From positions 29,297,666-29,361,665 of the forward strand of contig OX485807.1 of assembly GCA_950295325.1 (NCBI GenBank): a stretch of 64,000 nt of DNA, given 5' to 3'. The stretch comes from Polytrichum commune. Its lineage: Eukaryota > Streptophyta > Polytrichopsida > Polytrichales > Polytrichaceae. The position numbers and the translations under genes were made by a program. Positions 1 through 63,740 of the stretch are shown one piece after another. The notes beneath the pieces are model-generated. The model did not search any database, had not been told where the DNA came from, and saw only the letters and a program-made list of their open reading frames with translations. How positions within the stretch are numbered: position 1 is the first letter of the stretch; each line of letters begins with the position of its first letter.

Positions 1-185
1 CCCACTACCGCGGGGATAGTGTAGCCACCTTCCGGAAGGTGGCTGCTGTCATCTATATTCGGCTATAGGTCGTCAGGCTAGCTATAGGTTGCCTTAACAA
101 AGGGAAAGCTTGGGGGGAGGGAGGGAGGGAGGGAGAAGCTAATGCCCCCTCCCCACTTGACTTTACCAAATTACCAAAGTCTTTC

Positions 186-426
186 TTAACCCTTAAAGGA
201 CATATGCTTTCCCGATACCACACCCAAAATATATTTTAAAATTCATTTAAAGCATGATTAACCAATTAATTTACATAGGCTCTATTCTAAAGAAGTATAG
301 ATCTTGCTAAGGTGCTCGATTTGGCATTCTAAAAACCCCATTTGGTGCAATGAAGTAGAAGTTTTGAACAACATTCTCCCAAAATAATACCAAGCCCGTG
401 GGGCAACATTGTCCTTTAAGGGTTAA
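186..426. mobile_element. piggyBac-like non-autonomous element with TTAA duplication
   Basis: A 233-bp body (190-422) starts CCCTTAAAGGACA and ends with its exact complement TGTCCTTTAAGGG, and is bounded on both sides by TTAA (186-189 and 423-426). Comparison with the uninterrupted relative (rc of 990-1044) shows that exactly this stretch is extra, so it is an insertion into the outer Harbinger element. TTAA target site, 13-bp inverted repeat and CCC/GGG termini are the known hallmarks of piggyBac. The inside is AT-rich and non-coding. A TAA-duplicating Harbinger MITE with palindromic ends is the alternative. Confidence 0.6.
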
Positions 427-517
427 AACACGGGTAAAGCTCCCTCGGTTATAGGGGAGGCATCTGGATGCCCCAATGTACCTACAAGAACTTGTTTCCG
501 AGATTTTTCAATAGGTT

Positions 518-1047
518 TTATGCCCCCTCCCCACCTGACTTTAGCGAAGCCTAAAAGTTGGTTCTAAGAACGCCGCCTCTACACCATCGACATTATCTAG
601 TGCTGAGCATAGTTGGCAAATGATGTGGCATGGCTTAAGAGTGGAGGTCTTAAGCCCCAAGCACCGACCCTCCCATCGGTACCTAGACATGAGGCAAGAA
701 TATAGGACTTTTAAAAGTGTCGCCTCCTGCCCTTGTGATTGGTTGCTTCTTTTTAGTCTTAGCTATGAGGGCATGAGGAGCTTCATTAACAAAAACCGAT
801 GGTAAGATAGATGAGTAGTAAGGGATTTGGGGATGGGACAAAAACTATCCAACATTCATTGCTTAGTAGATAAAACCATGAACATGTGTGAAAGCCACTT
901 AACTAAAACCTACTCAAAAATCTCCGAAGCAAGTTCTTGTAGGTGCATTGGGATAGCCGGATGCCTCCCCTATAACCAAGGGAGCTTTACCCGGGATTTA
1001 GGAAAGACTTTGGTTATTTGGTAAAGTCAGGTGGGGAGGGGGCATTA
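518..1047 (+). mobile_element. Inner PIF/Harbinger-type MITE nested in the outer copy
   Basis: The element runs 521-1044 (524 bp) with inverted ends TGCCCCCTCCCCACCTGACT. It is flanked by TTA at 518-520 and TTA at 1045-1047, the 3-bp target duplication typical of PIF/Harbinger. Removing it rejoins the outer element, because the sequence on either side is continuous when compared with the intact right end. Its left part (521 to about 800) resembles 42070-42300 and its right part (about 800-1044) resembles 45220-45568, so it is an internal-deletion derivative of that full-length family member. It has no coding capacity of its own. Confidence 0.8.
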
Positions 1048-1495
1048 GTTAAGTAGCTTTCACACAAGTTCATGGTTTTGTCTATCGAGCAATGAATGTT
1101 GGGTGGTTTTTGCCCCATCCCCAAATGCCTTACAACTCACCTATCTTACCATCGGTTTTTGTTAATGGAGCTCCCTCGTGCCCTCGTAGCTAAGACTAAA
1201 AAGCAACCAGTCACAAGGGCGGGAGGGGGGACACTTTTAAAAGTCCTATATTCTTGCCTCATGTCCAGGTACCGATGGGAGGGTCGGTGCTTGGGGCTTA
1301 AGACCTCCACTTTTAAGCCATGCGACATCATTTGCCAACTATGCTCGGCACTAGATAATGTCGATGGTGTGGAGGCCGGGTTTTTAGAACCAACTTTTAG
1401 GCTTCGCTAAAGGCATGTGGGGAAGGGGCATGAGCATTCCACACAAACCAAGGGCCGCGACCACGAGCGTATCCATGAATGGGGAGAATCGACTG

Positions 1496-4777: not shown

Positions 4778-7700
4778 TCATGGGAATCCAAAGTCGGTGG
4801 CACGACAAAACCTCCAGCTGTTGTCATCCTTGAATTCCAAAACAAAGGTGTGAAACTTAACAAGGGAGATTCGATGACCCACTGAGATGTATGTTTCTAT
4901 TCTCTGCGACAACAAAGAGTAGAGCCGTGCTTCGTTCCCTGCGTCAAGTGCACTACTTGCCTCATCCAAGAAGGCGACCTTGGGGCTGTGCAAAAGCAGC
5001 CTTGCAAATGCCAACCGCTGCTGTTCCCCGGAACTTAAGTGGTCTGACCAGTCCTTCTCTGCACCAAGGCCCCCAACTCGAGTGGGAAGATCTTCCAGTG
5101 AAACTTCCTGAAGAGTTTTTAGAAGCTCAGTGTCACAAATCACATTTGAGGGACTCAAAGAACTCAAAGTTGATGGGAAAATAAGTTGCTCGCGTAACGA
5201 CCCTAATGGCATGTACGGCTTTTGCGGCAAGAAGAAGGTGTCGGCGTGTGGAGGACTTTGAAGGATGCCACTCCCCCGGTTCCATAACCCTGCAATGGCA
5301 CGCAGTAAAGATGACTTCCCGCAACCAGAAGGACCCATGACAAGTAGCGAATCGCCAGGGGCTAGTTGTAAGGAAAGATCGTGATAAAGTATGTTGCGTG
5401 CATTAGGAGTAGCAACTGAGAGGTCCTTTAGAATAAGACCTGGGCCTTCTTCTCGCAATATATTTCCTGTAAAACATGCACTCCCGAATTGCATGGTCAG
5501 AAAAATTAACCTCACCAAAACTTGATAACATTACAGTTATCCCCTAACTCAACATGACTTTTAATTGGGAGTTCATTGTTTTGCAAACAACACCTTCCAA
5601 GTTCAGAAAGCTCTTGGTGTATGCTTGGAAGTAGTGTGGAGATTTGTACGAATAACAAATAACAAATAGGTTCACTGAAGGGTCACGCTCATTTTGGCAT
5701 GCCAAGATGTGCTGAAACGAGTTTAGCCCTCAATCAACAAAAAAAGGTTGCTCGTCATTCAATTTAAAACACTACCTCTGAGCATGAACCCACAAGTGGA
5801 AATAAATTATTGATTTTGAATGCACGGCAACGAATGGAAAATCATAGGGGATCAAGTCCCATTGAATTAAAGGATAACTCTATTAAACATTCTGGATTGA
5901 CACATTTAAACTGAAGCAATTTCTTATGACAAAGTTCATGTTGTAGAGGACAGACCAGAAGGAATAGGTCCTGCAATCATGTTCATAAGAGGGCTGGAGT
6001 CATCATCCTCGTCAATTGCCACACCCACTGCAGATTTGGCTCGACGCAATTGACGCTTCATTAGCCTAACGTCTCCGGTATGATCATCCAGTGCTGCCAG
6101 AAGGCTATCCAGCCTTTCTGTTTGCGCTGCAAGCCCACTGAGCCAAGTCCAAGTGGTCACAAACTTATATTCTTGAGTTTCTGACATCAGTCTATGGTAG
6201 AATATTGATAACTTACAAGAAAAAAGCATCACAGAAGGAATTAAGCCAATGTTATGGGTTAGAATTTGGATAACCCTAGCATGTTACTACTAGGCAAGCA
6301 AAATATGAAGCACTTGGCATTGATTTCATGAAATCATATCACAATATTAGTTAATGACTTAGACAATGGCATCCCTGCTGAATTTACATGGAAAAAGATG
6401 TCTACTTTTAGTTCTGTTTTACAGCTGACTTTCTCAAGATCATGACAGGAAATATGTAAGAGCTACACTAAATATGAAATTTAGTGTCACCTACTATTAG
6501 GAGTTACACACTCCTATATCTTTTTACTATTGATGTATTTTTTCACCAAGTAAAGATGTTAATGTTCTATAGTTTTAACAACCAATTCGACATCTGTTGG
6601 TAAAACAATTTGTGTACAGTAAACGGTTATAGCATTGTGTAATTCCAAATAGTAAGTGACACTAAATTTCATATTTAGTGCAGATGTTGGACAACCCTAG
6701 GATGTTCCCAGTAGGAATGCAAATTTGAACCATTTGGGCATTGATTTCATGAAATCACAACTTAAACAATGACATCTCTACTGAATTTACCTGAATAAAA
6801 AATTTCCTATTTCATGCTCAGGTCCTAGTACCTGGCATAGGTCATACAACTGATAGCATACCTGAGGTTGTCAAACTTAAGAACAATAACAGAAAGAGCA
6901 GCCAATATTCGGTGGAAAGCAAATCCAGTTTGTGAGATCACACCGAACTCCACCTGATGAACAAAGAAAAAGTCATCAATATGTTGCCTTCCGTTCATCA
7001 ATCAAAAACCGGATATCATCAAGTTGAAGGTCAGACAGGATTCACCCTGCCCATCTTGTCCACTCTGACATGCCAGTCTAGTCATACTTGATTTCTTTCA
7101 AAACACTACCTGTATATGACAACAAGACAAAGATAGTACGTGAATGAAGATATGTATCCACAAATCTTAAAACCCTTATTTGGCTGCAAGATATGTGTTG
7201 TAGATACTCTGCCAATTGGAAAAATATGTACACAGGAGAGTACCTCTCCAGAAAAGTAGCGAGGAGCAACAATGATGGATGGAACAATTATCATTGAAAA
7301 CTCATATACATTGTTGAAAAGTGACAGATGTCTGTTCCATACGATAAGCTCCCGTGCATTTGTCATCAGAGCGGCTAGAAAATTCTGGTATCAGGAAAAC
7401 AACAAATACATAAGGATTTACAAACAACTTCATGCTGGAATGTTTTTATAAATGAAATTAAAAAAAAAAATAACACATTAAGAAAATGCCAAACATGAAG
7501 ATAGGTAATAGATCAGTGTCCAAGTAAGAAGTAAGGGCACCTTAATAGTAGCAGCCTCATGACCTTCACCGCCATAGAAAGCTATTGACTCCACATTGTC
7601 TCGAACACGCACCAGAGAATACCTGAAGTTTGCCTCCTTTTGTAGATTCTGCACACAATTGATTGGAGTGTTAAGTGTTCAGAGTTCAACTGAATTCAGG

Positions 7701-13535: not shown

Positions 13536-14848
13536 GTGGAGGAGGGGGGACGTTAAATACCCCCCAACGAACTTTTCGGGGTGTCAGATCCGGGCTGGGG
13601 CAGCCGCCCGTCCAGAAAATCTGGATTTTTTGGACCCGACCGAAAACTGTTGCCCGCCCGCCCGATTTTGAAAAAACCATTGCCCTTGCATTCTTGAAGG
13701 CCACTTACTCACAAATCCCATATTGAGTGCACTTCACCTTCAAGGGCCAAACTCCAATATATGTTCACTTCCATTGAGTAAATAAGCAATTGACTAGGAT
13801 TTCATTATCAAAGTGAAACCGTCAATAAAACATGTAATTAACTTGGAAGTCAAAAATATTACAAAACCCTCACTAGCACTGAGGTTATAATTTTTGTGAC
13901 TCACAATTTGAAATTGTCTTTGTCATTCTAAAATGGCACTTAAATTTAGTGTGCTGATTTAGTGTGTGTATTTTATAATATTTTAGGTAATGCCGTCTAC
14001 TTTCACAAGTATTCATACGCATTCAAATGAATCAAGTGTGATTAAATATAATTAAGTATAATTAATCTTCATTAATCTTCATCAATCCCAAATAAATCAG
14101 AAACTATGCTTACCAAATTAAGTAAACCTAATTGATTATAAAATGTACTTACTGTAAATAATTAATTTCTGGAATTAATTCCAGTGAGTTAATTCTAATA
14201 ATTAATTTCTGGAATCAATTCCGGTGAGTTAATTATAATAATTAATATCTGGAATTTAATTTCAGTGAATTAATTATAATAACTAATTTCTGGAATTTAA
14301 TTCCAGTGAATTAGTTCTAATAATTAAGTCCAATGAATTAATTCTAATAATTGATTAATGAATGCGTATGAATACTTGTGAAAGTAGACGGCATTACCTA
14401 AAATATTATAAAATACACATACTAAATCAGCACACTAAATGTAAGTGTCATTTTAGAATGACAAAGACAATTTCAAATTGTGAGTCACAAAAATTATAAC
14501 CTCAGTGCTAGTGAGGGTTTTGTAATATTTTTGACTTCCAAGTTAATTACATGTTTTATTGACGGTTTCACTTTGATAATGAAACCCCAGTCAATTGCTT
14601 ATTTACTCAATGGAAGTGAACATATATTGGATTTTGGCCCTTGAAGGTGAAGTGCACTCAATATGGGATTTGTGAGTAAGTGGCCTTCAAGAATGCAAGG
14701 GCAATGGTTTTTTCGAAATCGGGCGGGCGGGCAACAGTTTTCGGTCAGGTCCAAAAAATCCAGATTTTTTGGACGGGCGGCTGCCCCAGCCCGGATCTGA
14801 CACCCCGAAAAGTTCGTTGGGGGGTATTTAACGTCCCCTGTGGAGGAG
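13536..14848. mobile_element. Non-autonomous Mutator-like element with long inverted arms
   Basis: Left arm 13545-14035 and right arm 14359-14838 are near-identical inverted copies (about 490 bp each), starting GGGGACGTTAAATACC. They are flanked by a 9-bp direct duplication GTGGAGGAG at 13536-13544 and 14840-14848. Long arms plus a 9-bp duplication are diagnostic of Mutator-like transposons. There is no transposase; the centre (14036-14358) is AT-rich tandem repeat. A short open frame starting MAFKNARAMVFSKSGG is present in both arms simply because they are copies. It sits between the start of the ABC transporter gene and the 3' end of the O-fucosyltransferase gene. Confidence 0.85.
14036..14358. 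repeat. AT-rich tandem subrepeats in the centre of the Mutator-like element
   Basis: About four units of roughly 40-60 bp are built around AATTAATTTCTGGAATTAAT, CCAGTGAGTTAATT and TAATAATTAA. Each unit contains its own small palindrome, so the loop can fold further. Confidence 0.75.
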
Positions 14849-15358: not shown

Positions 15359-15536
15359 CTACAATGTTTTTTGTCTAATTAGTATGGGTTACCATCTGGA
15401 GTTACAGCTTCCAATAACTTTTTACCAAGAATATCAATTTTTTTTACCCAAATAACATGAGTAGGAAATGTCAGTAAAAAGTTATAGCAACACATGACTC
15501 CAAATGGCAACCCACACTAGTTAGACAAACAGTGTA
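15359..15536. mobile_element. MITE, second copy of the family at 1496-1720
   Basis: Inverted ends are CTACAATGTTT with TTTGTCTAATTAGTATGGG at the left and the complement CCCACACTAGTTAGACAAA at the right. It is shorter than the copy at 1496-1720 but retains the same interior phrase AATGTCAGTRAAAAGTTATA. Confidence 0.75.
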
Positions 15537-40753: not shown

Positions 40754-41386
40754 ATGGGGGAGGGAGGACGTTAAACTTCCCCCCACGAACTTTTTAGGGA
40801 GGTAGATTCGGGCAGGGGCAGTCGTCTGTCTAAAAAATTCATATTTTTTAGACCCAATCAAGAACTGTTACCCACAAGTCCGACTTTGAAAAAACCATTG
40901 CCCTTGCATTCTTGAAGGCCACTTATTCATGATTCCCATATTGAGTGCACTTCACCTCTAAGGTCCAAAATCCAATATTTATCTTCACTTCCATCCAATA
41001 AGTAAGCAATTGACTGGGATTTCATTTTCAAAGCGAAACTATTAGTTCCGTTTTGGACTTACCATTGAAAGGGTCTTTGTCATTCTAAAATGGAACTAAT
41101 GGTTTCACTTTGAAAATGAAATCCCAGTCAATTGCTTACTTACTGGATGGAAGTGAAGGTATATATTGGATTTCGGACCTTAGAGGTGAATTGCACTCAA
41201 TATAGGATTTGTGGATAAGTGGCCTTCAAGAATACAAGGGCAAGTTTTTTCGAAGTCGAGCGGGCGGGCAACAATTTTCGGTCAGGTCCAGAAAATCTAG
41301 ATTTTATGCACAGGCGGCTGCCCTTGCCCGAATCTACCTCCCCCGAAAAGTTCGTGGGGAGGAGTTTAACGTCCTCCACATGGGAG
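40754..41386. mobile_element. Compact hairpin member of the Mutator-like family
   Basis: Arms 40763-41054 and 41087-41377 are inverted copies with only about 32 bp of loop. They start GGAGGACGTTAAAC and share most of their length with the arms of the element at 13545-14838, including GCCCTTGCATTCTTGAAGGC. The flanking 9-mers ATGGGGGAG and ACATGGGAG agree only partly, so the target duplication is decayed. There is no transposase. Confidence 0.78.
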
Positions 41387-42547
41387 GGTTCAAGGTATTG
41401 TTGGGGTGCCATTTCGATGTCCATAACATTATTCAACGCTTGTTGGAATTCTCTATGTAATTAGTGTTTCATGTTTCATGTTTCATGCAAGTTGGGACCA
41501 ACCCACCCTACTTTACACTAGCCTCATTGTAGTATTTAGTAACCGAAATGCAACTAAAATGATTTGGATATTGTGCTATTGTTATTGGCATGGAAGGTAT
41601 TCATGTGTGAAACGTGGGGCAATTAGCTAATAAATTATAGGAACCAATGGATCTATATGACATTTGAAATTTTAAAACAAACAACGGTATATTTTTACAC
41701 CAAAATGAATGGGAGCCTATTCTTCCTTGCCATGATCATGTGTTACCAAGCTTCATGGTAAGGCTACTTCCTTCCTTTTGGCAAGTGGTGCCTACCGCTC
41801 AATTTGATTGAGTTTAGGCTATGCAACTATGTTTGGGGCTACAAGTTGTGGATATATTATAATGGACAACGGGCATCCAATGATTTATTGGAAATCCAAG
41901 GGCATGAGGTACTTAATTTACCTAGGTGATTGCGAGTCGAAAGGTGACCTTGTTGTTGTAGATTTAGGTGGACTTTGCACACACGTAAATAAAGATGTGA
42001 TGTGAACATCATGTTGAGCCACTCAAGACTTGATTAGGAAAATAAGCCACTTAAGACCCATGTACCTCATACCCCCTTCCCACTTGACTTCAGCTTAGCC
42101 TAATAGTTCGTTTTAAAACACATCCTCCACACCATTGATGCTATCTAGTCCCAAGCCTAGTTGGCAAAGGACATGGCATGGTTTACAAGCGGAGGTTTTA
42201 AGCCTCCAGCACCAACCCTCCCATCAACACCTAAAGACGAGACAAGAATGTAGGACCTTTAAAAGTGTTGCCTCCTACCATTGTGATTAGTTGCTTTTAA
42301 TGCTAGAGCATCCACACTATCGAGCGAGGAAAGGTTGCTTTATCACTCGTTCCCGGGTGACTTGTTGCCGCTTAGAATTAGGGTTTGCAATGCGAACTTC
42401 ACCCAAAATGTTGAAAATTTCTTGGGCCCATGTTAACTTGCACGATGGCGGATGGAGCTTGATTGGACAAGCAACTGAGTTGGCAAGGCGCCAAACATTG
42501 AAAGGGGGTTTTAGGAAACACACGATTGAATCTCGGCATATTATTTT

Positions 42548-43350
42548 ATGCAAGACTTTTTATTTCCAGAAGAAACATTTAGGTAAACGTTTTCAAATGT
42601 AGAAAGGATTCTTTGGATGAATTCATGGTGCAGTTGTCAACCATGACGTACTCTTTCAAGAGTGGATCGTTGCACTTGGCAAAGTTGGGCTCTCGAATGC
42701 ACAAAATATCACAACAGCTCTTCCATTGTTTGCATATGGAGCGGCGTATGATTATGTCGACGAGTACATCATAATTGGTGAATCTACTTCAACGAAATGT
42801 TTGTATGGATTTGCAAGTATTGTGATTGAGATATTCGGGGTGAGAGTACTTGTCCCATGGATTGGCAATATCGGTACCAGAACAAGGATGGTGAAAGGAG
42901 TTTGGTCATGGAAACAATTGTGACAAAGGATTTGTGGATATGGCGTGTGTTCATAGGGATTCCTACATCTTTAAACGATATCAATGTGGTTAATCGTTCT
43001 CCTCTGATAGTGAATTATCCGCGAGGTGTTGCCCCACACGCAGAATTCATGGTCAACAACCAAATGTATCATATGTGCTACCTTCTAGGTGATGGAATTT
43101 ATTCAAATTGGACCTTCTTTCAAAATACTATCTTTGAACTGCAAAGTGAAAAGAAGAATGGTATGCGAATATGCAAGAGGTGTTTCAGAAAGACGTAGAA
43201 CGGGCATTGGGGTCTTGCAAGCAAGTTGGAGAGTGGTGCGGTATCCATCACAACTATAGAGTGAAGCAACGGTGAAATGTGTTTGGAAGACATGTGTGAT
43301 CATGCACAACATGATCACTAAGAACAAAGAAAGAGACCCAGTGGAGAATT
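42548..43350 (+). pseudogene. PIF/Harbinger (HARBI1-like) DDE nuclease, broken
   Basis: Reading frames joined by stops and frameshifts show the family order. MQDFLFPEET and an interrupted N-terminal part are followed by VDEYIIIGEST (about 42755-42787), then FGVRVL, an abrupt jump to NKDGERSLVMET, then DLWIWRVFIGIPTSLNDINV (second catalytic Asp in LNDIN, 42929-42988), YLLGDGIYSNW, VERALGS with the probable catalytic Glu (about 43195), and CVIMHNMI near 43297-43321. The stretch that should hold the first catalytic Asp (the IDCMHW region) is missing by internal deletion, so it cannot encode an active nuclease. The family cuts and pastes DNA together with the Myb-like partner. Confidence 0.85.
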
Positions 43351-43689
43351 CAAATTGTTGGGCGGCACCAACGTCAACTTCGTTGGAGAATTTGTCGGTT
43401 TCAATATCACTTTCGTTTGATAGGATTGCACAGCTATTGCTCATGATCTAGTGAGCAATTGCTTATGATCCAACAAGCGGTTGCTCACTACTAGTTCCGC
43501 AATGACTTGGTTGAGCATTTATGGACGATTAGTGGTGACCAAGATTAATGTGTCATGTTTTGCACAAATTATCCATCTGTAACATAACTCCTCATTGACA
43601 AATAAAGTGTATTTTCATAGCCAAATTTCGATTATGTATAGCTTCTGTTTGTACATGCCCTGCGGTTTTAAAAAATAAATCTTAACATC

Positions 43690-44636
43690 CTACATCAAAC
43701 TCGAATTGTCTACAATCCCAAATTGAGAAACTGCGAATTGAGTGGTGAATTCCGAGGTGCTCGGACAATGTAGATTAGTGTAGGTGCTCATAAAATCCAG
43801 TGGATATACTTGCAGGGGCGGTGATTCCATGGGGACGGCCATGGTGCTCTTGAAGGAGCTCAACACTTGCGATCGACGAAGGCATACGTAAACTTGTGCA
43901 TCTAGCTCAAGATTTGCAAGAGATATGATAAAGAGCTGCAAATGCGCATTTTTTTTCATGACCTCGGTCTTTGTTGCATTCACCGCTGCCATGATTGTAG
44001 TGGCTTTCCAAGGTCTGCATCCAAATGTACGAGCTTCGTTTCAATAGTGACCGTTTTCTTTGCTTTCTTGTTACTTACATGATGTTGATACAATTGATTG
44101 GGTGGTGATGCAACATCTAGACTTGTGCCCTTGCCACTATTATTGTCACTAGGCCATGACAATTCAAAAATTTGTTATCTGTGGGGCAGTGGAGGAGGTG
44201 CACAATGCGCTTGCCAGTTCGGTGCCATTGCAACACTCGCCAACATTCCATGGGGGCAAAAAAACGGGCGATTGTCTTTTGATGGTGCTTGGTAAAGTTA
44301 TTTGGCCGTTGGCCATCTGATCCTCTTCGTTGGTATCGGACTCATACAAATCGCAAACGCTTGCAAACGCACCAACAAACTTCGACCCAAAATGTTGCAC
44401 GGTGGACCATTTCAACTCCAGAAACTGCCTTGGGTGCAACTCACAGTAGGAACCCTAGCTTTTATAAATACATCTTCAACATGACACCAAAAATTAACGG
44501 ATTCTTGACTTATCCCCTTCCTAGAATTTCAGTTCACATTCGACCATGCTCTACACAACCTCACCAATTCATCGTCACTGAAATTTGTACCTCTTTGTTG
44601 TTGGGTCGGTGGATTTCCTTTCTCGGTGGCCGCCAT
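43690..44636 (-). pseudogene. Harbinger Myb/SANT-like partner protein, broken
   Basis: An ATG at 44636 opens MAATEKGNPPTQQQ and then NFSDDELVRLCRAWSNV, the SANT/Myb-like (trihelix-type) segment. It soon meets a TGA. Further pieces in order on the minus strand are FWCHVEDVFIKA, SKFVGAFASVCDLYES with TNEEDQMA (about 44380-44310), KKAKKTVTIETK (about 44080), KKNAHLQLFIISLANLELDA, and a C-terminal end at 43690. This order matches the plant NAM-associated, Myb-like second protein of Harbinger elements, which binds DNA and aids transposition. At least two stops or frame changes break it. It is convergent with the nuclease pseudogene. Confidence 0.8.
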
Positions 44637-45568
44637 CAACTCCACACTACCCTCAGTCGCCCAGGACTCCCTTTCTACCTCCATGCCGAAGTTGAATTTT
44701 ACTCAAGCCATGATCAATTTTTGTGTACACATGCAACGTTGAGGAGCTCGGAGGTGCAAGACGAAGGCGCAACAGTTTGAACTAACAGACTAGAGCAACA
44801 GCATTGGAGGCTCTCGACGAGAAGCTGCTACGAAATTATCAACGAAAATTATCAAGCAACATGACCCAATGAGACATCCCCATCGATTAGAGCGCCGCAG
44901 TAGTGCTCGCCTGCAATCTAGAGGTCTCCCAATAACCAAGCAGGCAAAACACCTTCTGTTGCATCATGGAACACCGTGATCAGCATAAGGCCAACATGCT
45001 CACATTCATGCAGTACCTAGATATGGGCGTAGTTTTTTCTTTTTCTTTCTTTTTCTTTCTTTTTTCCCAATAACCATGTCAAACTTTTGGGTTTTGTTGG
45101 TTCCAATTTGTCATTGCAAGGTTTGTGGTGGAGATTGATCTTTAGATATTTAGGTGGACCAGCTTGGCGTTACTACTTGGTTTGATTGCCTTCGGCTAGC
45201 TCGAGGACGAGAAGATCTCCATCAACAAAAACCATTAATAAGATAAATGAGCGGTAAGGCATTTGGGGATGGGACAAAAACTATCCAACATGTCGTTGCT
45301 TGGTACATAAAACAATGAACATGTGTGAAAGCTACTTAACTAAAACCTACTCAAACCTTGTGGGTGCATTGGGAAGCCAGCCGGGACGAACCAACCCATA
45401 CATTGGTTCCTTGGAGGCAAGGATTCAGGCATCCAACAAGTAACATGTGTATGGGTTGGTCCGCCCAAACCTTGGGAAGCCCGGGTAACTCCACTATAAC
45501 CAAGAGAGCTTCACCCAATTTGTAGGAAAGATTTTAGTTATTTGGTAACGCCATGTGGGGATAGGCCT

Positions 45569-46884
45569 TTAGAATGGTGCTTTTATTTTGAGGACATAGT
45601 CCAAACATCATCTTGATACAAAACCTCGTTTTGGTGTTGTCTTGTCATTATACCGTTCAACTATAAGTGTCTGATTAAAAAGCTTGATCACATAAGGCCC
45701 ACATACCTTAGACCAACAATGCCTTGTAACCATTTTGAGCACGCCAGTCTATCTAGCATCTAATACAATAACCTCATTGGCAGATGTTCTCCACATGACT
45801 GCCACTTGAGAGAGGGTTGTATGTCATTTAGAATACAAATTGATATGTGAATGAATAGTGTTTAGTATCTTAAATGAGCCCCTACTGAGCCATTCAATGA
45901 ACCAGGAATGTCAAGTTTCACCGTTGATAACTAACGGTGTTCAAATCCAATCATAAAGAAATTTGTGGCATTATTCAAAATTTACACCAGTTATGCAAAA
46001 AGCCAATGGTACAGTAGGGCCACAAAGTTGGTAGTGCCCACAATGTGCACACACACCTTAGGGAAGCGTGAAGAGATGGCTTCCATGGAGAAGCAAAAAC
46101 AGAATGCTGATGACACAATCTTAGATACAGTTTTTTCTTCCATGAATAGCAATTCTGGACAGAATTTCCACCTTTTCTAGTTCAGTTTCTCATAAAGAGA
46201 TGTAAGATGTAGAACCTATAGGACTTTCAAACCTAATGTACCTAAACCTTCACTCTTCACTTCATGGCTCACTGTATAAATCATATCACAACATGAAAGT
46301 CACTGGAGTGGGGCATATCTCTTCCCCATCGCTCTGACATCATCAGCACATAATGGACTCATGGGGACTAACTTCACCATTAGTACGTAGGGTAAGTAGT
46401 ACCATTCACCACTACGGTAGCAATTCAGGGGATAGAGGTCAACGTCCAGTACTTTGAGGACAGAGTGTCCAACATGACTAAATCACAATGCTATCCCCTA
46501 CAGGACAGAGTTCTCCATGATTCTTCTAGTCAAGTATTCAGCCTTTCAATTTGATAAGGTGTTGATAGATCAGAAGAGTTGCTCACCCTACTAACACATT
46601 TTGGGTCGTGCGAATATATAGCTCTTGAATTCTTCAAAGTTGGACGAGTACAGCAGAAGATGTCACTCAGAAAGCCATGCTCAACATTTAGACCCCACGT
46701 GTCCACCATCCATCAGCTGCTCATACCCGTTCAGTTCAAGGTTTGCATCATGGTTTGTCCAGAAAAATGGTGAGAAGCGTATCAAGATACTAACAATAAC
46801 ATAAACTATTTGAGAAGGGAATTCATTGTTCCTAGAAGGTAGATTAAATGGTCTAATTACCTACAGAATCATTCCACTGCAACT
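45569..46884. other. 3' flank of the EDR4-like gene, no gene seen
   Basis: The right part should contain the 3'UTR of the minus-strand EDR4-like gene; its end is not obvious. Open frames at 45965-46180 and 46579-46773 are short and unrecognised. Confidence 0.4.
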
Positions 46885-49800
46885 TTATGAACCTCTGTTG
46901 CTTTCTGGCACCCACATGCCAGGACCTTTTCCAGTATGCTCCAGCCTGCAATCCCATTCAACCCATTAGCATCCAATCCAATCGAAAGATTGAAAAAATA
47001 GAAAAACAAAAATAATTTGTTCAGCTGCAAACAAGTATGGGTCATGGGATATGTTATATTAAAACCAGTTTAAGTTAAGGTTATCGACATACGTTGGTGC
47101 AAGCCGACCAAGACCCTTGAGTTCATTCCCAGTCGCTACGTCTATTATGCGACCATCAATATCCACATTGTAGGCCTTCCCTGGAGTCCCTGGGAGGCCA
47201 CGTCTCTTCAATACCTCCAAGTCTTTGTAATGTAATTCCCTCCCATTGACCAGTACCCCAGTTTTGCCTTGGGAACAGTGTCGGGCCAGTGGATAGTTCA
47301 ACTCCTCAATATACGGCTGCATAGACACCCAAAGTTATGAGATTTTGATGTATAATAGAATGACACAGTAGACAAATAAATAAGTGACTTAGGGTGATAT
47401 GAAAATAAATGGCTCGGTTGATTTCACTCACTGGAATCATTCCCAGACATGGTCCTCCCATAGTTCCCCAGAAACCTGCGCGAGTATCATACCTGCACAG
47501 GCAAGTAGTACAACAAAGTTACACATTTAACAAGGATGCTGGTTATGTTAAACTATGTAACTGCAGACGATTTGAACAGATTTTGCACGTTGTCTAAATC
47601 CAAGATACGGGATAAGAAGCTAATAGGTAGTTCTGTGATTTATACTTGGTTATCGAATCAAGAAAAACCTAAAATATCCTAGCCTATACCCATCCGTATA
47701 TAGGAACTCTCCTTTCATATTATTCTGTCACTTCATCTACATTTTCACCTTGTCCTTGCAAAGAGTCTTCCGATATTTTTATTTTTTCTTCTTGTAATCA
47801 ATTAAAATTGAATAAGCTACCAAAATATGAAGCAAAAATCCAAGAATGCCTAATATACACCCAGGTACAATTATGCTTGCAATGTGACAGAGTTTAGGGG
47901 ACATGACATACCAATAAGACCCTGGATGTATCGGTCCTGCGAATTCCTCTGCTCTTCTAACAACATCATCTGGTACAGCATGGTTGTTCACAATCACCTT
48001 ACGGCGATACTGATTGGACTTCTTGCCCTTCGTAAACTCCTGCACACTCTTTTTGAAAAATCCTCTTAAGCCCCTGAATTCTTGACTGTCGTCAAATTCT
48101 GGAGGATCAGATGGAGGCCATGAATTTTTTGGGAGTGAAGAAGAGCCACTTGGATTAAGGTTCAGTGATGCAGATGGCTTCTCTTCATCAGATTCACTGC
48201 TTGAATGAAGAACCCGATGGTCTGGGGAAGGCTTATGCAGTTGATCCACACCAGAGTCCTGGCTTGTATTTGTCAGCAGAGGTGACTCTGACTGATCAAA
48301 AGGCTCACCTGTAGATGATGGAGGCATGTCTTTGTACTCTCTTCCACCTTTTCCAGATTCTTCATGTGGACCTATCTCCCCTGATGTGCTTGGTGTTGTA
48401 CATTCAGAAGTCTCACCCGGTCCACCTGTACTCATGTTTGATAACTTGGACCCTAATGAAACACGTGCATTATGTTTTGCACTAGGTGGCAAGGAAGCTG
48501 CTCCACTACCAAATGAACCATTGGGACTTAATGCACCTAACTGGAAAGAGGATCCAGGAGAAAATTCACTTGCACCTGGAGAAGAACTTCCACTAGGTGA
48601 TAACAAGTGATTCAAGCGGAATCTTGATATTTTCCAACATGCTCCACATCGAAGTTTTTGCAGTCCAGTCTGGCACGGGGGAAGATCATAAGGAACTTCC
48701 AAGTTCATCCTACAATGTCTACACTTAACATGGATTCGGTCAGGGACTGGGGTATTTATCTGCAGTCTGAGTGTTTGTGTCTGCAAATGTCCCACAGCAG
48801 AGGAAAAGTCAGACCCTCCTTGATGACCTTCTTCATGCAGAGGAGAACCATTTGATGTCTCTGATGCTTCTGACTTCGAACCATATGTCCTCTCCTGCAG
48901 TTCCAGGTGAGAATCAGATTTTTGTGCTTGAAGTAAATCGGCACCATTGGTTGATTCAGGAGAAGAATCCGGAGAGCGTTGAAGATGGAGAGTCTCAGGT
49001 ACTTTGGGGTCGATAGACATTGTTGCCTGCGGTTGTCCTGCAGAGCTTGAAGGGAACCTCCTCTTATCTGATCCTTGTTTCTCACATTTGTCATCTATTA
49101 AAGACTCAGACTTAGTTTCTACCTCATGTGAAGAGATTTTTTGTTCTTCATAGGCCACACACCGATCCTCAACCTCTTCATGGACAAGTGGTGGGACCTT
49201 GAAGTGATCTGAAAAGGGTCCAGCCTGTCCTATACTTGACCACATCTTGGGAGAAAAGGAGGAAAAACTGGGTGGAGACAGCAGTAATTTTGGTGGAATC
49301 AACAAGGACTTGCTGGTTGACACAGATAGCACTCGCTCCTCAAATTGAGATGCAGGTTCTTGCTCATACTGAGTTGATGTGTACTTGTTCACAATCAGCC
49401 CCTCTCCTTGTGATTCCCTGGCCTTTGTTGCCTTCTGTTGGCCCTGCTTGCCAGTGTAGAGATCTTCAACAGACATCCCTTGTGTTGATGTGATGTCCTC
49501 AGAAGGAGTTTCCATAACTGCCTGCTTGATTTGTCTATCCCTCTCAATATAATTGACACTGGGTTTCTTTCCTTCTGCCTCTATGACCTTCAATGGGTCT
49601 TGGGTACCACCTGTCTCCATCTCCTGCCCCTGCTGGGCCTTCGGGAGATCTTCTTGAGATTTCTCTTTCCGCAAGTACGTTGGCCTATTTCCTCTCCTTA
49701 AGTCAAACTGGTGGGTGATATCTTCAGGTGAACTGCCTAGTCTTTTCGTAATTTCTGAGCTTCGTGTCCCAGTACTGCGGTGTCCTGGATGATCAAGTAG

Positions 49801-51253
49801 ATTATGTCCAAGAGAACTTTTGATGTCACTCTCCTCAGAAGACACTGACCTATGGATCCTAATCGTCTGATTCCCAAGAGGGCCAATCCCCGGTGAATCG
49901 CCACGGGGGCCTTTAGAATAGCTTTCGAGTGTGTCATCACTACTTTGCCTCCCCAAGGACTCAACTGATTCACGCGGAGACGTTCTTCCTTGATATAGAC
50001 GACCTCCTGAATTTCGCAGACTACGACCAGTTGTAATCTGAGGTTTAGGCTTCTCTCTTGCCTTGTAGAGTGGGCCAGCTGCTCTCCGTGCAGCAAGAGC
50101 TTTTCTGGGTGAAAATGCTGTTAGATCATCTTCAGAGTCTTCATCACCTGAATCTCGAGACACATCAAAGGGTGATATTTTTTTACCATTACTGCCAGAT
50201 TCACTTGTCCCTCTCTTGCCCTGGTCAATCTGTGGTCCTTGTCTTTGATCAATTGTGTCACTTGGAGTAGGGTCAACATATTGGTGTTTATGCATAGGTG
50301 AGCTTTGAGTGTCTTCCACAGTGGTGGTATCAACCCTGTTGCTATCCTCCAATCCCACTCGCCCCTTTCTGTGACTACTAGTATCTTCTGAAGCACCATG
50401 CGTAGATTCAGATGATGTAGACCCATGAGGTTTATGTCCCTTTCTACTCTCATTACCATCTTCTACACTGATAGGCTCAGCTCCCTTTGCTCCATGTACA
50501 TTGCGAAAGACTGGTGACCTCTTATTATCATCAACATCTGTGTGCCTTGTCACACGATCAACTTGAGGAGGTCCATGATTATGGTGCCCCTGTTCACGTA
50601 GCCTCTCATTGTGAGAAGTTGTGCTCGCATGCTTTGCTGCACAACAATGTGAGAAGCAGTGAGTCCACTACCTGTGAGAAACAGCAAATACTCTCTAATC
50701 TCACTGCTTGTAAGTGAAACTAGCTCCCAGTAAACTGACACAAAAATTTATCCCATGTTCCACCTTGTCCAAAAACATGTCCTCTTGGACAAGGTGAAAC
50801 ACCTGGCACATAAATTAAATGGTATAACTAGACTAGGAATCCAATAAGACCTTGAAGAAATTGCTGGACGTGGATAACAAGCATGACTCCTTTCTCAAGG
50901 AAATGATATGATTATTCCACTACTCTGAAAATAAACAGCCTCATATCTTGGTCCAACTGTTGTTAAACCTCAAGATGATGTAGCACAACAAACCATCAGG
51001 TTCTGAAACCTTGACACAGGTCAACCACTCCATGAAACTAACAAACTAATTCCCACATTGTTTTCAGGCCCAATATGCATACAGGAGTCAAGGAGTAGAT
51101 GAAGGAGAACTAGGAAGTACAGTGGCCATTAAAAAACAGACCTTTCAAAACAGTCGAACAGTTGCCGCACTTGTACAGAGGAGTTCCAGGGGGGGGTTCT
51201 TGGAGAAGTGCAAGGCATTTTGGGCACCGCACAATCCTAGGCTTTTTATCCAT
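46885..51253 (-). CDS. EDR4-like (ENHANCED DISEASE RESISTANCE 4 family) zinc-ribbon protein, 5 coding exons
   Basis: Member of the plant EDR4/DUF3133 family; Arabidopsis EDR4 is known to modulate powdery-mildew resistance with the kinase EDR1 and clathrin. Exons: 51253-51142, 50636-47912, 47492-47432, 47316-47093, 46945-46885. All are GT/AG and in phase, giving 1060 aa. An N-terminal zinc ribbon has CPKC at 10-13 and CGNC at 29-32, the place where family members start. A long charged, Ser/Pro-rich low-complexity middle follows. The second zinc ribbon (about 673-707, CRHC then CGAC) is the DUF3133 signature. A conserved C-terminal module starts near AEEFAGPIHPG and continues YDTRAGFWGTMGGPCLGMIP, VLVNGRELH and LGRLAPT. 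Exon 2 alone covers 86% of the protein. Reading exon 2 through its 3' splice donor would give a spurious hydrophobic tail; the spliced version restores the family C terminus. Confidence 0.92.
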
Positions 51254-61589: not shown

Positions 61590-62300
61590 CTTTATGGCCA
61601 CTTCACACATGGACCGAGAGTCATGACCATGAAAATCTACATGGTGTCCCACATGGCACCAAGTGGATAGTGTTTTGTGGTCTATTAGATGTTGCATCAT
61701 GCTTATCAAAAAGAGATGGTCTAATGCAAATCTAGGGGATGTGACAAGAACTTAAATTGTCATTGGGTCCTAGAAAGTGATATTGCCATTGGGGAAGGGG
61801 ATTCCCAAACCACCTACTATTTTGCAAAATCCATAAAATTGTGAGAATCGTCCAAAGGCCATATTGTAGGAACTAGACATTTCATTTTACAATTGATGGG
61901 CCCTCAAGGTCATTCAAATTGAAGTGGACTATGTTGAGGGATTGATGTTTTATGGATATTCCAAAATAGGACTTGGTTTGGGAATCTCCTGCACCAATGG
62001 CAATATGATTTTCTAAAAGCTAATGACAATTCAGTTGCTTGTCACGGCCCCTAGATTTGCATTAGACCCACCTCTTTTTGATGAGTCTAACGCAATATCT
62101 AGTAGACGACAAAACACTATCCACTTGGTGCCATGTAAGACACCATGTAGATTTTTCATCCGCTTCAAAATTATATGGTCCCTCAAACCCTCATGGTCTA
62201 GTGTAAAGTGAACTTGGAACAGCCCTGGCTTCTTGAACAATCACTTGAATCATATATCACATGTCAAGGACCCTCATGCTCTAGTGTACTTAATCACCAC
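61590..62300. mobile_element. Diverged member of the GGGCCACTTCAC Harbinger-like family
   Basis: Left end TTTATGGCCACTTCACACATG resembles the terminus at 33240. The right part carries CACTTGGTGCCATGT, TCTAGTGTAAAGTGAACTTG and CATGCTCTAGTGTA as in the tandem copies at 2105-2795. The right terminus is eroded. Confidence 0.5.
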
Positions 62301-62617
62301 ACTTTGTGTTTCAAGAGATGCAAAGGATTGTGTGAATAAGGTGGAAGCATCCAATTCGATTGGTGACCCAATTATGACACTTTAGTTGTATGAATCACAA
62401 TTAATACTACACTAAATCTTGTATTTAGTGCACCATTTTTGTTGTCTTGCTTGATACTAATTGTAAACCTCCCATACAGTGTCACCAACACTAAGTGTAA
62501 ACATAACATTATTTCTCATTCCTTGTAAAAAGCTTGGCCACTATAGATTTACAATGTTGGCAAATTGTCACTTTTAAGTGAATTTCATCCAAATTTCTTT
62601 TTTGGAACATAGGAGGC

Positions 62618-62757
62618 GTGTGGCCACCTAACTATTTTTTTTGTCGAGTAGAGAGAAGATTAAACGGCTAGGAATCAAACCGCCAATCACTTCACTTGGT
62701 TTTGGGTACCTCTTCACTATCCTCCGGTAGTTTAGGGTCATCTTGGACCAAATTTTT
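62618..62757 (-). repeat. tRNA-derived SINE-like repeat, copy 2
   Basis: The minus strand reads GATAGTGAAGAGGTACCC and GGCGGTTTGATTCC at the same spacing as in the copy at 60367-60545. The B box is mutated, so this copy is probably dead. Confidence 0.55.
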
Positions 62758-63740
62758 ATCCAAATTTTAATCATTCATGACAATATTTATGTTATAAAGA
62801 GAAATATACAAAATTTTGTTTCAATAATTGACTTGAATTACATCCAAATTTCAATCATCTATGACATTACTTGTAAAGTTATTCATTAGAAGTGTCACTA
62901 CAAAAGTTACCACATTCATATAAAATACTATATGACACAAAATACAACATTTGGTGTGGTGCGTTTGTATATTCAGGGCCCTTGATCTTGATGTACAAAC
63001 TATGTGATGGTCAAGAAGCCAAAGATGATCCAAGTTCGCTTTATACTATATTTCAAAGACATGAGGGACGAAAGAATTGAGTGGATGAAAAATCTACATG
63101 GCATCGTACATGACAACAAGTGGATAATGTTTTAAAGGTCTACCATATATTGCGTTAGGCCCATTAAAAGAAGGTGGGTCTAACATACAACTAGGCACCA
63201 TGGCTATGAAATAAATTTCCACTAGCTACTAGTAATATTGTAATGCCATGGTGGGGACCCAAACCCCAACATATGTTGTGGTCCCTCAACATGGTCCATT
63301 TTCAATCTACACTAAGCTTGAGGGTCTATCACTTGCAAATTTGGATCAGTTTTTCCCACATTTGGGATTTTGGATGATTTTAAGGGCCCTTGGATTTTCA
63401 TGGTATAGGCTCTTGTATGCGTGTGAAGCGGTCCTAAATCACATGATGTCATCATAATATCATGAACTCAATTGGATCAACATTATGGATTTGCTAAAAC
63501 AAGTGGCCAATCGCAAAAGTGCTATGCCCTAGTAGTATCTTGCACACATGGCCAATTTTGGTTGGCTATCCGACCAAGTCCCAAATTTGGTTCATTTTAG
63601 AGACCACTCTATACCAACAATCACTTGGAACTAGACTTCACTTGAAGAGTGAGAAACTAGTACCATATATGCGGCCAGTTATGGTTGGCTCTTTTCATAG
63701 GGGCCAAGCCAGTATGTGAATAATTGCATTGGAAACATCA

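Follow-up and report, generated by a model that had tools for sequence, protein, structure and literature searches.

A nested pair of same-family Harbinger-type MITEs with a second, unrelated insert in Polytrichum commune

Near the start of the window, i.e., the whole 64,000-nt stretch of Polytrichum commune DNA analysed in this study, two MITE copies of the same family lie one inside the other, in opposite orientation. We interpret this locus, with a probability of about 95%, as a nested pair of 524-nt non-autonomous PIF/Harbinger (Tourist-like) MITEs, of which the outer copy landed first and the inner copy later, combined with a separate 233-nt insertion into the outer copy. The two copies are related, their junctions are exact, the inner one is bordered by a TTA duplication and it arrived after the outer one. 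Points against this interpretation are the imperfect outer duplication (TAA/TGA), the mismatched flanks of a decayed long relative (TCA/TTA), the missing G(N)5GTT motif, a PF13359 match below the cut-off, a possible ORF1 stretch in that relative that Pfam did not recognise and a weak substitution asymmetry between the copies (two-sided p 0.058).

Junctions and empty sites of the nested copies

The inner copy spans 521-1044 on the plus strand, is 524 nt long and ends in a perfect 23-bp TIR (TGCCCCCTCCCCACCTGACTTTA). Analysis of flanks and junction placed its target site duplication, TTA, at 518-520 and 1045-1047, and the inner element with TTA/TTA flanks of the original prediction was hence recovered in full. 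Among the 63,467 intervals of 524 nt in the window, identical 3-nt flanks occur at 1,178 and identical TTA or TAA flanks at 45; given the TIRs and the exact empty site as well, the duplication is not due to chance.

The outer copy extends over 143-1430 on the minus strand, inverted relative to the inner copy, with TIRs matching at 20/23 positions. It is bordered by TAA (140-142) on the left and TGA (1431-1433) on the right, an imperfect duplication with one mismatch. In a self-comparison, inverted matches were obtained between 520-906 and 1045-1431 (91.0%), 424-520 and 904-1000 (87.6%) as well as 139-189 and 998-1048 (94.1%), and the outer copy therefore belongs to the family of the inner MITE in opposite orientation. 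When the inner element is removed together with one TTA, the outer copy runs through the family sequence at junction 520/1048 without a base gained or lost. In this register, 44/50 positions match the family sequence on the left and 44/50 on the right, compared to 7-20/50 in the other registers tried, obtained by sliding the family sequence along by 1-3 bases or by moving just one of the two edges within the range tried.

The proposal that excision of 521-1047 restores an inverted copy at 143-1430 held with regard to the shared family, the two halves and the exact junction, but 190-422 has to be removed as well. In fact, excising 521-1047 alone leaves an outer copy of 761 nt, which is 237 nt longer than the inner copy, and a full copy is not recovered in this way. 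After both excisions, the outer copy's own sequence (143-189, 427-520 and 1048-1430) amounts to 524 nt, the same length as the inner MITE, and the two are identical at 477/521 aligned sites (91.6%). The remaining 44/521 sites comprise 29 transitions and 15 transversions, corresponding to a K2P distance of 0.090.

The second insert (190-422) has a length of 233 nt, a perfect 13-bp TIR (CCCTTAAAGGACA) and TTAA on both sides (186-189 and 423-426), which can be read as a TTAA duplication or as a TA duplication with a TIR starting ACCC. Excision together with one TTAA restores the family sequence, which is matched at 44/47 positions to the left of the site and at 82/94 to its right; in register, the insertion site matches at 36/40 positions, versus 5-16/40 in the other registers tried. 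It is this empty site, matching the inner copy, that carries the case for the insert, which is unrelated to the MITE family and represents a separate insertion event. Blast searches at E up to 10 gave no other copy of 190-422 within the window; besides its own arms, short pieces only were hit elsewhere, the best being 18 nt (E 0.042). With up to 2 mismatches, the TIR word occurs five times in the window, two of these being its own arms, compared to a shuffled mean of 1.99, and a count of five was reached in 8/100 shuffles. TTAA-bounded pairs with perfect 12-mer inverted ends were likewise found five times, four of which lie within the MITE nest or the inverted repeat at 13.5 kb; six control words, compared by count alone, yielded between 0 and 7 such pairs. 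Taken alone, the TTAA boundary is statistically unremarkable. The hairpin fold of 190-422 is moderately better than that of its shuffles (z -2.53; 2/200 as good).

Piggybac-type MITEs are recognised by a TTAA duplication and a TIR starting CCC. The 233-nt insert would resemble such an element if TTAA is the true duplication, and TA with an ACCC TIR fits equally well. To our knowledge, a piggyBac-type MITE in a plant would be unusual; a literature search on piggyBac MITEs with TTAA in land plants retrieved no paper, and a looser search gave no titles with a plant subject.

The window contains further inverted-repeat structures. A small element at 1502-1714 has 30-nt arms (97%) and a relative at 15370-15529. 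The very regular inverted repeat at 13546-14838, with 480-nt arms that are 98% complementary and 333 nt in between, is possibly a young foldback or long-TIR element and shares short exact words with a smaller inverted-repeat element at 40763-41377. Within 61632-63235, several inverted-repeat arms overlap, possibly forming two more hairpin elements related to each other, one at 61632-62155 and the other, which is incomplete, reaching to 63235.

Family assignment and the long relative

A decayed long relative of the MITEs at 42070-45571 (plus strand) both supports and strengthens the originally predicted Harbinger assignment. It is 3.5 kb long and carries a broken plant transposase in the approximately 2.9 kb between its MITE-like ends (profile hits at 42071-42330 and 45182-45567). 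These ends match the MITE with 79.9% over 229 nt (E 2e-54) and 86.3% over 153 nt (E 8e-47); the profile matches reached E 3.3e-78 and 1.3e-87, with a profile built including these very ends. The right end can be placed to within a few bases only, and if it lies at about 45568, the flanks read TCA/TTA and do not match.

Eight frames of the long relative were sent to Pfam. The frame at 42830-43195 (plus strand) matched Plant_tran (PF04827, E 5.7e-30) and, below the cut-off, DDE_Tnp_4 (PF13359, only E 0.009), and the frame at 43260-43448 matched the end of PF04827, likewise below the cut-off (E 0.037). A third frame gave only an unrelated match (E 0.12), and the remaining five gave no Pfam match. 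As the transposase likeness is split across separate frames, it seems that the long relative itself cannot provide transposase. A stretch that we take to look like a plant ORF1 (Myb-like) lies on the minus strand at about 44301-44702; it matched 0 Pfam families. Since the long relative shares both ends with the small copies and carries the PF04827 frame, the 524-nt MITEs look like internal-deletion derivatives of its plant PIF/Harbinger lineage.

Further features fit this assignment to different degrees. With regard to the 3-bp TTA/TAA duplication of PIF/Harbinger MITEs, the inner copy has TTA/TTA, the outer copy TAA/TGA and the relic TCA/TTA, and the TIRs (23 bp, perfect in the inner and 20/23 in the outer copy) lie within the length of about 14-25 bp. 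MITE and relic also have their ends in common, the latter encoding a Harbinger-type transposase domain (PF04827). The motif G(N)5GTT is absent from the inner TIR, as read by eye from its letters; we take this motif to be one study's own search criterion rather than a requirement across the superfamily.

The family has three members in the window; searching it with the profile (E up to 0.1) returned only pieces of these. With up to 3 mismatches, a 14-base word of the MITE TIR occurs 19 times in the window, compared to a mean of 3.39 in shuffled sequences, none of which (0/100) reached 19; many of the matches are ends or inner parts of the three members and several are plain C-rich runs. Altogether, about 2.6% of the window belongs to the family (1,666/64,000 bases, with the relic counted by its ends only). 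A preference of the family for inserting into itself was considered and dropped, as one self-nest among three members is insufficient.

Apart from the repeats, an ABC transporter ATPase domain (PF00005, E 1.8e-18) was found at 4778-5530 on the minus strand. A 962-aa open frame at 47779-50667, also on the minus strand and one of five further frames sent to Pfam, showed a sub-threshold match to the EDR4 zinc ribbon (24.1 bits vs. a cut-off of 27). Both are likely host gene exons. Like the PF04827 domain of the long relative, the weak EDR4 match indicates a plant host.

Order of insertion, alternatives and proposed history

The inner MITE splits the outer one and is therefore the younger of the two. 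The split outer copy and the exact empty site confirm the predicted insertion order, and it follows logically, for at least one event, that the family was still mobile after the outer copy had landed. With the relic as outgroup, 23 of the substitutions between the copies were polarised as derived in the outer copy and 11 as derived in the inner one, with 9 three-way sites and 1 undecided (binomial one-sided p 0.029, two-sided 0.058). This asymmetry agrees weakly in direction with a younger inner copy, as the relic is a distant outgroup (K2P 0.26 and 0.29) and the copies may have differed from before the insertion.

The arrangement of two adjoining inverted copies with long inverted arms is one that an inverted duplication would also create. 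Instead of the separate insertion of a copy from elsewhere, one could accordingly propose a local rearrangement, in which the outer copy was duplicated in inverted orientation or was the site of aberrant gap repair. However, the inner copy is complete, with perfect TIRs and TTA on both sides, and the outer copy is split without loss of a base; moreover, the inner copy lacks its neighbour's 233-nt insert and differs from it at 44/521 sites, which leaves a rearrangement highly improbable. With the published G(N)5GTT motif missing from the TIR, the assignment to the Harbinger superfamily could also be challenged: the MITE might come from a different superfamily that makes 3-bp duplications, and would then resemble the relic only by accident. 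Yet both relic ends match the MITE (E 2e-54 and 8e-47) with PF04827 in between, and such a coincidence is highly improbable.

A third scenario is compatible with the nested insertion and concerns only the 233-nt insert, which the outer copy could have gained elsewhere, before moving as a 761-nt element and then receiving the inner MITE. The window is compatible with it, and the two inserts occupy separate sites of the outer copy, but no second copy of the 233-nt insert was found within the window; we regard this course of events as rather unlikely.

Under the favoured interpretation of two successive insertions, the outer MITE landed first, and a second copy then inserted in inverted orientation at a TTA inside it, duplicating the TTA. 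The inner MITE was probably mobilised in trans by a Harbinger-type transposase, which a relative of the relic at 42070-45571 may have supplied. The 233-nt TIR element inserted separately, elsewhere in the outer copy, with duplication of TTAA (or TA). As stated in passages of PMC2836001, movement of Harbinger-type elements involves both ORF1 and the transposase protein, and Tourist-like MITEs are mobilised by elements of this superfamily.

The self-insertion also created a long inverted repeat, with 387-nt arms that are 91% alike and 138 nt between them. RNA of 521-1430 is predicted to fold as one long hairpin of -720.7 kcal/mol, compared to a mean of -281.6 kcal/mol (sd 8.7) for its shuffles, none of which was as good (0/20); this stability is a consequence of the inverted repeat and has no bearing on whether the locus is transcribed. 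In maize, Mutator is silenced by Mu killer. By analogy, the hairpin could, if transcribed, feed small RNAs silencing the MITE family and its source in trans, a role that we consider very unlikely.

Comparison with nested MITEs of other plants

The locus can serve as a teaching example in which transposition occurred in ordered layers and the empty sites are readable from a neighbouring copy, with a decayed relative containing a transposase frame about 41 kb from the nest. Its value for annotation lies in establishing the family's ends, length and target site; general knowledge of MITEs is left unchanged.

In maize and rice, MITEs were commonly found inserted in copies of their own family, according to Jiang and Wessler 2001 (cited in a passage of PMC3695323). 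These cases resemble the present one in having a MITE inside a member of its own family, and differ in family and TIR sequence and in the additional unrelated insert found here. The Stowaway MITEs of carrot (DcSto), as presented in passages of PMC3695323, are likewise nested, and their duplications are marked; one of the cases involves a Tourist-like MITE with TTA, and nesting of DcSto in DcSto has been suggested there. Unlike here, the element that received the insertion is of the Stowaway (TA) type. According to passages of PMC2213677, the PIF/Harbinger elements of Medicago truncatula share with the present family the TTA/TAA duplication, a TIR length of 14-25 bp, the occurrence of deletion derivatives of longer elements, and nesting. 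The TIR motif G(N)5GTT reported there is absent here, and the nested inserts named in these passages are Gypsy-like retrotransposons, unlike those of the present locus.

For rice, passages of PMC6171319 give 20/17,651 MITEs nested in larger elements with MITE Tracker (printed as 0.13%) and 10,069/36,029 (28%) with detectMITE, which the authors largely blame on duplicated calls. Since definitions differ (overlap of TIRs), we do not set a nesting rate. In comparison with these systems, the P. commune locus offers a clean and unexceptional case of something familiar from other plants.
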